From Irineochytrium annulatum (taxonomy: Eukaryota > Chytridiomycota > Chytridiomycetes > Chytridiales > Chytridiaceae), in contig JADGJL010000087.1 of NCBI GenBank assembly GCA_027600665.1, positions 1-45,900 of the forward strand: a stretch of DNA of 45,900 nt, read 5' to 3'. A program made the position numbers and the translations under genes. Positions 26,394 through 32,845 of the stretch are shown here, piece by piece. The notes beneath the pieces were generated by a model. It was given only the letters and a program-made list of their open reading frames with translations. It was not told where the DNA came from and searched no databases. Position 1 is the first letter of the stretch. The number at the start of each line of letters is the position of its first letter.

Positions 26394-26458
26394 CAGAAAA
26401 TAATACGTTGACTATAGTCAATACAAGTCGATTTTTGAACTATATTACTGATTTGATG

Positions 26459-26799
26459 ACGGGACCAAGTACTCCGTGCCCACATGACCAGAGAGGAATC
26501 CCCAGGCTGTAAGGATTCTCTTGATGAGCGGACGAATGACTTCCCCGAGAACAGACGGCGAACATGGCAGACATGATCTGTTGACCAGTAGCCGGCCTGC
26601 GCAGGACGTGCGTTACACGTAGAGCGGAATATCTGCTTGATCAGGGTGCAATAGGCAATCCTGAATCATCAGAGATCACCTGAACGGCTAAAGTGTCAGG
26701 TTTCCGAAATGTGGGTGGTACCACGGGTGAATGTATATTACACAATCTCTCGTCCCTTTGTTTGCTGTATATACAGCGACAGGGCGAGGGATTTTTTTG
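26459..26799 (+). promoter_or_regulatory. T-box riboswitch of hisS-aspS, probable Asp (GAC) specifier
   Basis: T-box leaders read uncharged tRNA through a specifier codon and the acceptor end. Stem I can be traced: GGGA (26461-26464) pairs with TCCC (26542-26545), and TCCG (26472-26475) with CGGA (26529-26532). Between them lies a specifier loop with the AGTA/GAA loop-E motif (26467-26470 and 26534-26536). The codon after GAA-T is GAC (26538-26540), Asp. The apical AGAGAG...GGCTGTAAG elements are present. The T-box sequence GGGTGGTACCACGG (from about 26713) precedes a terminator: TCTCTCGTCCCT pairs with AGGGCGAGGGA, then T7 (26743-26799). No His codon (CAC/CAT) is in the loop. Confidence 0.93.
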
Positions 26800-26800
26800 T

Positions 26801-27024
26801 TATATAAGTTGATTTAAAAGAAATACACGAAAACGGAGAGGGCAGAAAAAACCTGTAAAAGCGAAGCGTTCGCCTGAAAGCTTTCTGAAAGAAAGCTGCA
26901 TCGGAAGCATATGCTATCACCGGATTTTCACATTTAGAATGAAAATTTAAAAAATCTGGGGATAACAGCGATTGTAAGGTTGATCTGCCAGCGCAGTGAT
27001 CACGTGTAGAATTTTTAACTGTAG
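26801..27024 (+). repeat. Intergenic structured repeat, copy A (hisS leader)
   Basis: This stretch aligns along most of its length with 31296-31526. Shared features in order are AGCGT (26865-26869), a hairpin AGCTTTC-TGAAA-GAAAGCT (26879-26897), CATCGGAAGCAT, ATGCT (26911-26915) and TATCACCGGATT. After a divergent loop comes TCTGGGGATAACAGCGAT. CCGGATT (26920-26926) pairs with AATCTGG (26953-26959), extended by TATC/GATA. The ends are imperfect but TACACG (26824-26829) can pair with CGTGTA (27003-27008). The element lies after the T-box terminator and ends about 18 bp before the hisS ribosome site, so it is in the read-through mRNA. Confidence 0.85.
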
Positions 27025-31295: not shown

Positions 31296-31526
31296 CTATA
31301 TAAGCTGAATAAGGTTTACACAAGAACGAAGAGGACAGAAGAAACCTGAAGAAGCAGAGCGTTCGCCTAAAAGCTTTCTTAAAGAAAGCTACATCGGAAG
31401 CATACGCTATCACCGGATTCGTACATTTAAAAATTCAAACAAAAAATCTGGGGATAACAGCGATCGGAAGGTTGTTCTGTTAACGTAGTGGTGGAGTGTA
31501 AATACTCAGTTATTCAGCTTATATAG
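31296..31526 (+). repeat. Intergenic structured repeat, copy B, with 17-bp inverted ends
   Basis: CTATATAAGCTGAATAA (31296-31312) is the exact reverse complement of TTATTCAGCTTATATAG (31510-31526). Further in, TTTACAC (31315-31321) pairs with GTGTAAA (31496-31502). The core matches copy A: AGCGT (31358-31362) with ACGCT (31404-31408), hairpin AGCTTTC-TTAAA-GAAAGCT (31372-31390), CCGGATT (31413-31419) with AATCTGG (31445-31451), TATC/GATA, then GGATAACAGCGAT. It ends about 20 bp before the permease start, in the same orientation relative to the gene as copy A. No transposase is present. It could be a MITE-like element or a mobile structured RNA. Confidence 0.88.
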
Positions 31527-31546
31527 AGAGAGGGGAATAGAACGAA

Positions 31547-32845
31547 ATGAAACACGGATGGATGGCCAGACGTCTTGGCATGGAGCCAGGAGACCAGTGG
31601 AAGAAGGAAGTTGTGGCGGGAGCCATTTCCTATTTTGCCGTGGTCTATATCGTTATGGTCAATGCTACAATTCTTTCCGATGCCGGAATGCCTTTGCAGG
31701 CAGCTATGGTTGGAACCCTGCTGACATCGATCGCAGGCTGTTTACTCATGGCATTTGGCGGAAAATCACCAATTATCGTTGTACCCGGAATGGGGATTAA
31801 TGCATTTTTCACGTATACACTCGTACATTCCATGAAATTAAGCTGGCAAGAAGCGCTGGCCGTTGTAACCGTTACAGGTATATTGTTTGCCATTGTTGCG
31901 TTTACTTCTCTATACAAAATGATCAGCGAAGCCATTCCCAAAAATCTGCAGCATGGTATTACGGTGGGGATTGGCTTGTTCCTCACGTTTATTGGTTTGC
32001 AAAAAAGTGGAATCGTTATCGCGCATCAGACGACATTTGTCGCGATTGGTCACTTTAATGATCCGAATGTCATTACAGCCTGCGTTACGCTGGTGCTGGC
32101 CTTGATTTTATTTATCCGTAATGTGCAAGGCGGACTTCTAATTAGTATTTTGGTCGGGACAGGTCTTGCCTATGTACTTGGAGCAGTGAACCCGGGTGAA
32201 TCCGTATCAGCGATGGATGCGCTACGTCAATATGGCGGTTTGTTTGGTGAATTGTCCTTGATGAAGCTGGCTGATGTAGCATTCTGGATCGCGGTATTTT
32301 TGCTGCTGCTGATTGTGGTGTTCGAAAATATCGGTTTAATTACAGCTCAGACACAGATGATTGGTCGTCCGAAGCGCTTCAAGGGAAGTCTGCGGGCACT
32401 ATCGATTAGTACCGTGCTGGCAGGCATATTTGGAAGCAGTCCTCCAGTGGCCGCCGCCGAGACGACAGCTGGTATTGCCGCAGGTGGACGCACAGGGTTA
32501 ACTCCACTCGTTACAGCCGTGTTGTTTGGGGCAACCTTTTTCTTCATCCCTCTGCTCGGTTACATTCCAGACAGTGCGATTGCACCCATTTTGATCATTA
32601 TTGGCGGTCTGATGGTGCAAGGTGTGAAAGATATGGACTTTGGTGACTTTACAGAGGCTTTTCCTGCTTTTCTGATCATGGTCATGATTCCATTTACATA
32701 TAGCATCGTGGACGGGATGGCGTTTGGATTTATTGCCTATCCACTTGCGAAGCTGGCAGCAGGTCAGGGTAAACAGGTGCCTGTGGTCATGTATGGCATA
32801 TCCATCCTCTTTTTGGCCAATTTTGTGCTGCACGGCATCTTGTAA
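31547..32845 (+). CDS. NCS2/AzgA-type purine (adenine/guanine/hypoxanthine) permease
   Basis: A 432-residue membrane protein with about 12-13 hydrophobic segments of the AzgA/PbuG/PbuO branch. Landmarks are GAISYFAVVYIVMVNATILSD-type N-terminal sequence, VVPGMGINAFFTYTLV, GITVGIGLFLTFIGLQ, and the signature GSSPPVAAAETTAGIAAGGRTGL. Substrate is inferred as a purine base but the exact base cannot be assigned. GAGAGGGGAA lies about 8 nt upstream of ATG. Repeat copy B occupies most of its leader. I looked for a guanine riboswitch and did not find one. Confidence 0.9.
   Translation: MKHGWMARRLGMEPGDQWKKEVVAGAISYFAVVYIVMVNATILSDAGMPLQAAMVGTLLTSIAGCLLMAFGGKSPIIVVPGMGINAFFTYTLVHSMKLSWQEALAVVTVTGILFAIVAFTSLYKMISEAIPKNLQHGITVGIGLFLTFIGLQKSGIVIAHQTTFVAIGHFNDPNVITACVTLVLALILFIRNVQGGLLISILVGTGLAYVLGAVNPGESVSAMDALRQYGGLFGELSLMKLADVAFWIAVFLLLLIVVFENIGLITAQTQMIGRPKRFKGSLRALSISTVLAGIFGSSPPVAAAETTAGIAAGGRTGLTPLVTAVLFGATFFFIPLLGYIPDSAIAPILIIIGGLMVQGVKDMDFGDFTEAFPAFLIMVMIPFTYSIVDGMAFGFIAYPLAKLAAGQGKQVPVVMYGISILFLANFVLHGIL

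Follow-up and report, generated by a model that had tools for sequence, protein, structure and literature searches.

A short interspersed repeat of Paenibacillaceae that combines a conserved multi-helix RNA fold with TA-flanked, apparently mobile copies

The window, the whole 45,900-nucleotide stretch of DNA that was analysed (contig JADGJL010000087.1), contains two copies of a repeat element, copy A in front of hisS and copy B in front of a purine/uracil permease gene (Table 1). The assembly from which it derives comprises 26.9 Mb in 1082 contigs, which is too large for one Paenibacillus, and is therefore probably a mixture. The permease of the window is 99% identical to permeases of P. amylolyticus-like strains.

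Table 1. Features of the two element copies and their surroundings. Positions are those of the window, except in the last row, which gives collected loci.
Feature	Position	Strand	Remarks
T-box leader	26447..26760	+	upstream of copy A; 68.9 bits, E 6.5e-14
Copy A, long form, degenerate right end	about 26801..27022	+	sense, between T-box leader and hisS
hisS, histidyl-tRNA synthetase, PF13393	27054..28307	+	downstream of copy A
Copy B of the repeat element, long form	31296..31526	+	231 nt
Left terminal inverted repeat (TIR), P1 5' strand	31296..31312	+	CTATATAAGCTGAATAA, read directly
Inferred TA target duplication, left	31297..31298		element proper starts at 31299 (TATAAGCTG...); based on empty site L184
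P2, TTTACAC / GTGTAAA	31315..31321 / 31496..31502	+	
P3, GACAGAA / TTCTGTT	31334..31340 / 31475..31481	+	helix 1 of alignment A3, strongly covarying
P4, AACC / GGTT	31343..31346 / 31470..31473	+	helix 2 of alignment A3
Purine-rich conserved internal loop	31347..31357	+	TGAAGAAGCAG in copy B, CTGGAGAAGCG-like in divergent copies
Pairing AGCGT / ACGCT	31358..31362 / 31404..31408		
Optional 39-nt module with AGCTTTC hairpin (P6a)	31369..31407	+	missing from the short form
Hairpin AGCTTTCT / AGAAAGCT	31372..31379 / 31383..31390		
P6 hairpin, TATCACCGGATT ... AATCTGGGGATA	31408..31456	+	helix 4 of alignment A3
Pairing CCGGATT / AATCTGG	31413..31419 / 31445..31451		
Highly conserved 3' stretch, ACAGCGATCGGAA	31457..31469	+	included in the pattern of the collection scan
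Right TIR, P1 3' strand	31510..31526	+	TTATTCAGCTTATATAG, read directly
Inferred TA target duplication, right	31524..31525		element proper stops at 31523; based on empty site L184
Ribosome-binding-like GAGAGGGG of the permease gene	31528..31535	+	directly 3' of copy B
Purine/uracil permease family gene, Xan_ur_permease PF00860	31547..32845	+	ATG at 31547; downstream of copy B
Purine-operon gaps with copies of other subfamilies	L144:4915-5594, L053:4753-5245, L098, L108, L086, L122, L136, L152, L040:129-485		

The ends of copy B, CTATATAAGCTGAATAA and TTATTCAGCTTATATAG, are exact reverse complements over 17 nt. Direct reading thus agrees with the first-pass annotation of this DNA, which had described perfect 17-bp inverted ends, and the four inner pairings that it named are all present at their places. 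It had also placed a purine permease gene directly 3' in the sense orientation and seen no protein-like open reading frame inside; the Pfam assignment of the downstream gene bears out the former, and copy B holds no frame of 90 or more amino acids. No terminator- or promoter-like site was found inside copy B. The minimum free energy of its predicted fold is -65.1 kcal/mol (z -5.57), and none of 200 dinucleotide shuffles folds as well. The reverse strand has a nearly equal fold energy (z -5.32), as is usual for palindrome-rich DNA. Where one closed multi-branched domain had been proposed, the modelled consensus fold is chiefly one long interrupted stem, and a second branch is added in the long form. 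The long-range helices P3 and P4, which were absent from the earlier list of pairings, matter most.

Copies A and B have aligned blocks of 85% and 82% mutual identity. P1 of copy A is less perfect than that of copy B, and its fold is weaker (z -2.71, with 1 of 200 shuffles as good). Model R1, a core model without P1 that comprises 151 positions and was built from 39 short copies, identifies two full copies in the window, with 96.0 and 93.4 bits; two further, weak matches at E≤1 lie on the reverse strand and echo the P6 hairpin. A 104-residue open reading frame on the minus strand overlaps copy A and is taken as a chance occurrence. An element that carries a promoter was rejected as an explanation, with no promoter match in copy B and two weak ones inside copy A. 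The T-box before hisS is clearly present, although its score lies below the 93-bit Rfam gathering score. It is a separate element upstream of copy A, and the interpretation of the repeat as a T-box variant was rejected.

The element occurs in a short form of ~190 nt and a long form of ~230 nt, which differ by the single 39-nt module. Among 188 distinct near-full copies in the collected loci, 120 are short and 68 long, as called from six-base strings only. Family-1 copies other than copy B are about 190–230 nt long, many with imperfect ends, and L175 has at the permease site a copy that resembles copy B except for the missing module. The mixed assembly itself contains at least 40 element loci, some of them partial (61 BLAST rows merged). 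An exact 23-nt pattern retrieved at least 120 stretches from GTDB genome contigs, and all 120 are titled Paenibacillus. Model R1 matches 241 of 295 genomes of the Paenibacillaceae, a family of soil bacteria. In the class Bacilli, scanned with stricter filters than the family, 27 of 299 genomes match (the non-family share of the 299 is not stated); all 27 were already in the Paenibacillaceae set, so that no newly drawn class genome matched. Copy numbers range from 1 to at least 102 in 30 of 30 divergent genomes, which were picked because they match R1, and reach at least 150 in P. amylolyticus Heshi-A3 (G002), where 150 of 150 scored candidates match. Thirteen IMG/VR stretches (L162-L174) also carry the repeat, all with model matches and several at one common site. 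Cargo of plasmids or known phages was nevertheless rejected, as the annotated plasmid and phage collections gave no match.

The earlier statement that no named Rfam family is recognizable is borne out. No family of Rfam 15 fits the window at its gathering score, and between 26235 and 31560 the sole row at E≤10 that overlaps an element is mir-3432 at the 3' end of copy B (E 1.8, far below the gathering score). Nine loci with subfamilies 2/3 and 12 divergent loci gave no match either; the other rows are tRNAs, T-boxes and purine riboswitches outside the elements, and chance matches with E≥0.6.

The evidence for a conserved fold comes from two levels of divergence. Within the window's own family (39 copies), a double change with pairing kept is seen in 13 of 33 pairs. 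Alignment A3 contains 37 divergent sequences, i.e., the family-1 reference with two relatives, two purine-operon subfamilies, two transposase-repeat copies and the best hits from 30 genomes, and was made by MAFFT without structure information; here 28 of the 33 pairs show double compensatory changes. Because most divergent rows are each genome's best model match, well-formed copies are favoured in this set. Paired cells amount to 95.1% in A3 versus 82.3% in shuffled alignments, the covariation score is 0.422 versus 0.177, and none of 500 shuffles reaches any of five measures. When the partners are slid, 31–55% of the cells pair. The unpaired stretches CGGAG, the GAGAAGCG loop and GGAAG are conserved while the helices change their letters, which, as judged from these alignments, is the mark of a structured RNA. 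In alignment A1 G-U pairs outnumber A-C mispairs by 64 to 8 (37 to 8 without the mostly-G-U pairs), and in A3 by 45 to 15 (28 to 15 without them, p 0.07). This asymmetry identifies the listed strand as the folding strand, although prediction of the structure on that strand somewhat favours such a result. The closing helix P1 lies outside the model. In the P1 flanks of 30 divergent loci the mean duplex energy is -25.2 kcal/mol for the own partner versus -16.6 for crossed partners, and the own partner is the best of 30 in 12 of 30 loci. The excess is slight within family 1, where 37 copies with diverged ends have an own-strand complementarity of 7.9 versus 6.3 crossed, and one third of the crosses reach the own median. 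These comparative data show an evidently RNA-type fold on the listed strand, kept by compensatory changes; the sequence drifts, the folded shape is preserved and the RNA shape seems to matter.

The ends themselves vary between subfamilies. The TIR of the window's subfamily is TATAARYTGAAC, and the divergent loci L237, L252 and L263 still have TATAAGYTGAAC-like ends. The P1 sequences of many subfamilies are unrelated, and P1 is therefore not one universal TIR. In the purine-operon gap, nine loci carry at least two copies of two other subfamilies, often in both orientations. These subfamilies differ in their P3 and P6 sequences and have the same loops. From their translations we take the neighbours of the gap in L144 to be purC and purS. 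Two P1 types occur upstream of the presumed purC, and in L122 and L136 one is apparently inserted into the 5' part of the other. Near-identical copies of the RNA are also found within a multicopy repeat (L265-L269 in G198, L270-L271 in G179), in which a transposase-like frame, presumably IS1182-like, adjoins the RNA copies and is divergent from them. In L272 (G122:C1:3214400-3215700) three elements follow one another in tandem, spaced 182 nt; the array adjoins simpler repeats, which have GGAAGCATACGCTT in common with the optional module. Shortened derivatives are present in G002, namely L273, of which only the inverted ends and TTTACG remain, and L274, which has lost most of its core; L275 in the same genome appears to be a palindrome of the 3' part of the element.

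Comparison of orthologous sites gives access to the history of individual copies. Permease orthologues were collected from 20 genomes, two of which, L193 and L194, allow no judgement because of distance or incomplete sequence. The permease site is filled in the window and in 8 of the 20 (L175, L176, L178, L179, L180, L187, L181, cut by a contig end, and L185, shortened) and empty in 9 (L177, L182-L184, L186, L188, L190-L192); L189 has no model match and was counted as neither. The empty site of L184 reads GC-TA-GAG and the filled site GC-TA-[TATAAGCTG...CAGCTTATA]-TA-GAG. A TA directly before GAGAG is found solely in L184 and L183 among the nine empty sites. Comparison of L014 with L073 reveals this TA duplication as well. 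At the hisS site, P. taichungensis DSM 19942 (L141) is filled and P. taichungensis NC1 (L116) empty, again with TA duplicated, and a longer TTATA fits equally well. Copy A of the window occupies the same place as the L141 copy and has a degraded right end. L141 and L116 constitute a natural strain pair for an expression comparison of the hisS copy. In total 25 elements have a spanning empty homologue, but many of these represent the permease site once more, and several of the rest are messy, including L115/L104. Presence and absence at orthologous sites, with TA duplicated at three of them, show that the element has evidently been mobile. In addition, copies appear to have been exchanged, nested or reinserted at the same sites, because in L178 and L180 the permease site is occupied by a distinctly different member of the family and the P1 types at the purC site nest (L122, L136).

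The element has several of the features by which bacterial MITEs are recognized, namely a length below ~600 bp, no open reading frame, TIRs and a target duplication in filled versus empty sites. A search for the IS630/Tc1-type domain DDE_3 (PF13358) was negative in 6 of 6 element-rich genomes, and one weak match lies elsewhere in the mixed assembly; the mobilising enzyme may have been lost or be of another type. A parental transposon with the same ends was seen neither in 1.56 Mb of collected loci, which contain no larger element with these ends, nor in four genomes. In the collected loci 97 of 110 TIR-like 12-mers are located at elements, and the sole orphan pairs are separated by 29 and 75 nt. 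Close convergent end pairs in the four genomes have spacings of about 175–253 bp; two further pairs, spaced 31 bp and 3.6 kb, both represent shortened copies. An autonomous 3.6-kb element in G002 was thus rejected, as its two ends belong to two separate shortened copies.

Placement relative to genes was tabulated for 151 full family-1 copies, collapsed to 110 distinct sites, with gene neighbours assigned by a crude ORF rule in this and the other orientation tables. Seventy sites lie in co-directional gaps, 19 in divergent and 12 in convergent gaps, and 9 have no neighbouring gene within reach. At the 70 co-directional sites, which represent the window's clade, 62 copies are in sense and 8 in antisense orientation (p 1.8e-11), and 38 of the 62 sense copies stop 13–44 nt before the start codon. 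The 30 best hits from close genomes, a partly overlapping set, show 19 sense and 4 antisense copies, whereas 30 divergent loci show 11 and 9. The bias is therefore a property of the window's clade and not of the whole family. In convergent or antisense settings the 3' end of the element lies at most 20 nt from the opposing stop codon at 14 of 20 sites. At 19 of 29 distinct sites in the own genome a sense gene begins no more than 120 nt away. A Pfam domain was found in 18 of the 20 proteins scanned (the 19 downstream proteins and a ThiF-like protein upstream of copy B), and the 19 downstream genes have no common functional theme. They include MgtC, ACP synthase III, Sir2, glycosidases, a binding protein, LacI, a response regulator, YycI, trypsin/PDZ, HisS, a permease and others.

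Changes after insertion point in two directions. In 56 comparisons at 28 orthologous sites (4 comparisons with more than 20% difference were dropped from this check), 28 single changes keep a pair and 41 break it in one copy, while 4 double changes break pairs and none is kept. These pair-breaking changes look like decay. By contrast, differences affect 71 of 2514 positions in paired columns, 259 of 3872 in unpaired element columns and 6.8% in the flanks, as counted in 51 comparisons with at most 20% difference and a direct flank link; 23 seed columns were excluded, since most loci had been fetched by the exact 23-nt pattern. The lower divergence of paired columns resembles the effect of constraint or of gene conversion, so that the two results disagree on what the fold is kept for.

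The first-pass annotation had left the choice between a MITE-like element and a mobile cis-acting RNA, with copies in other genomes and covariation speaking for a structured RNA, and copies confined to one genome without covariation, or random orientation and position together with empty-site target duplications, for a plain MITE. The distribution over four fifths of the sampled family and the compensatory changes in A3 answer clearly to the former; orientation in the window's clade is non-random, but empty sites with a target duplication do exist. Covariation, non-random orientation and duplication at empty sites together lead to the conclusion that the element is both mobile and structured. 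Mobility and a conserved RNA fold are thus each upheld, whereas a cis-acting role is weakened by the absence of an orientation bias in the divergent subfamilies (11 : 9) and of a theme among the downstream genes.

We therefore regard the element as probably a non-autonomous, TA-inserting mobile repeat (MITE-like) with a conserved RNA domain. A trans-acting transposase would recognize the paired ends, with P1 serving as TIR in the window's subfamily, and insertion would take place at TA within AT-rich intergenic DNA. Transcripts of neighbouring genes would then include the copies, each of which would fold on its own, with P1 closing the domain. In the window's clade, most antisense copies would disappear, whereas sense copies immediately 5' of a ribosome-binding site would persist. 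The presumed reason is that a sense domain, once folded, does not obstruct the ribosome-binding site and may shield the 5' end; alternatively, a factor that reads the internal loops may act on the domain. Candidate targets of selection on the fold are mobility, RNA stability and protein binding.

More tentatively, the copies could be mobile cis-regulatory RNAs, recruited into 5'-UTRs, where they would govern how the following gene is translated or how stable its mRNA is; a shared RNA-binding protein that recognizes the conserved internal loops might mediate this. We consider such a role possible rather than probable. It would account for the sense bias of 62 : 8, the 38 of 62 sense copies close to a start codon, the position of copy A between T-box and hisS, the low variation of paired columns relative to unpaired columns and flanks, and the identity of folding and sense strand. 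It is at odds with the lack of a common function among the 19 scanned genes, with the unbiased divergent subfamilies, with the gain, loss and exchange of copies at the same sites and with the lack of terminator- or promoter-like sites in copy B, and gene conversion between copies could also lower the divergence.

Rather unlikely in our judgement is a fold that, as single-stranded DNA or RNA substrate of a trans-acting enzyme, serves mobility and not host gene control. Conservation of the fold across subfamilies that differ in position and orientation is consistent with it, as are the identical copies in the multicopy repeat beside a transposase-like frame and the tandem arrays. TA duplication, typical of double-strand DDE transposition, fits that process better than insertion of single-stranded DNA; moreover, no enzyme is linked to the element and the paired columns appear constrained after insertion. 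Less probable still is a plain MITE, in which the fold would be a by-product of inverted repeats and the RNA not selected. The short, ORF-free, TIR-bounded and TA-flanked copies, their large number and the frequent breaking of pairs after insertion agree with it, but the sense bias in the window's clade and the excess of G-U over A-C do not, and it is already weakened by the 28 of 33 compensated pairs. The mobile repeat with a conserved RNA domain is preferred over it because covarying internal helices with conserved unpaired loops would otherwise be unexplained. A metabolite riboswitch class, to which the 5'-UTR placement near ribosome-binding sites and the conserved loops might have pointed, is highly improbable and was rejected in favour of the same preferred explanation because it explains neither up to at least 150 copies per genome, nor the mixed downstream genes, nor presence and absence at orthologous genes; 12 of the 110 sites even lie between convergent genes, and copy B has no terminator-like site.

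As a structured RNA that is missing from Rfam, occurs in roughly four out of five sampled Paenibacillaceae and reaches at least 150 copies per genome, the element would count as one of the more abundant RNA folds of Bacilli still lacking a description. Unannotated copies will mislead searches for 5'-UTRs, riboswitches and sRNAs in this family. The element also provides a test case for whether mobile repeats keep RNA folds for mobility or for host gene control. A more far-reaching proposal, which we regard as doubtful, is that a transposing 5'-UTR RNA domain acts as a Paenibacillaceae-specific builder of mobile post-transcriptional regulons; if so, landing beside ribosome-binding sites would place unrelated genes under common RNA-level control via a loop-reading factor.

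Elements of this kind are already known, including the bcr repeats, BOX, RUP and SPRITE, and mobile/repeat sequence candidates. Correia, ERIC and other TA-flanked bacterial MITEs duplicate TA, and bcr1 has a longer target duplication than TA. In the open-access papers searched on repeats of Paenibacillus and Paenibacillaceae and on bcr1, no description of the present repeat was found. The accessible portion of the P. vortex genome paper counts 184 'global repeats' and describes none, and that of PMC8632094 holds nothing on Paenibacillus. In general, bacterial MITEs are co-transcribed and foldable according to the available sections of PMC10969869 and PMC3049150. Correia and ERIC resemble the element in being short, TIR-bounded, TA-duplicating, co-transcribed and foldable, and differ, by the descriptions at hand, in that a multi-helix fold kept by covariation does not appear in them.

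The repeats bcr1–bcr18 of the Bacillus cereus group are interspersed and intergenic, several with MITE features; they lie in UTRs and operon gaps of mRNAs, and some have a conserved predicted RNA structure (accessible text of PMC3446304 and PMC2267715). They thus share with the present element its occurrence in Bacilli as interspersed, structured intergenic repeats. Yet bcr1 is reported to be specific to the B. cereus group, going by a reference title within PMC3446304 and PMC2267715, whereas all R1 matches in the class sample fall within the Paenibacillaceae set. A survey of noncoding RNAs in 50 genomes reports mobile/repeat sequence candidates such as MRSC-65-2, with dozens of copies and strong covariation, and judges them selfish (main text of PMC11109978). 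Copy number and covariation are similar to those of the Paenibacillaceae element, but as described there MRSC-65-2 is one long stem in diverse phyla, in contrast to several helices with conserved loops in one family. Paenibacillus does not occur in that main text, but one of the survey's 250 mobile/repeat candidates could be the present element.

BOX, RUP and SPRITE of Streptococcus pneumoniae have many copies, structured transcripts and TIRs. BOX elements differ in their internal modules, and one of them is located between T-boxes (available sections of PMC3049150). In these aspects of behaviour BOX parallels the optional 39-nt module and the T-box neighbourhood of copy A. The three repeats are over-represented between convergent genes in the same account (PMC3049150), whereas the Paenibacillaceae element mostly occupies sense 5'-UTR sites. 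What sets the element apart is its multi-helix fold with conserved internal loops, its restriction to one family in the class sample, its high copy number and, unlike the convergent-gap preference of BOX, RUP and SPRITE, its sense 5'-UTR placement in one clade.
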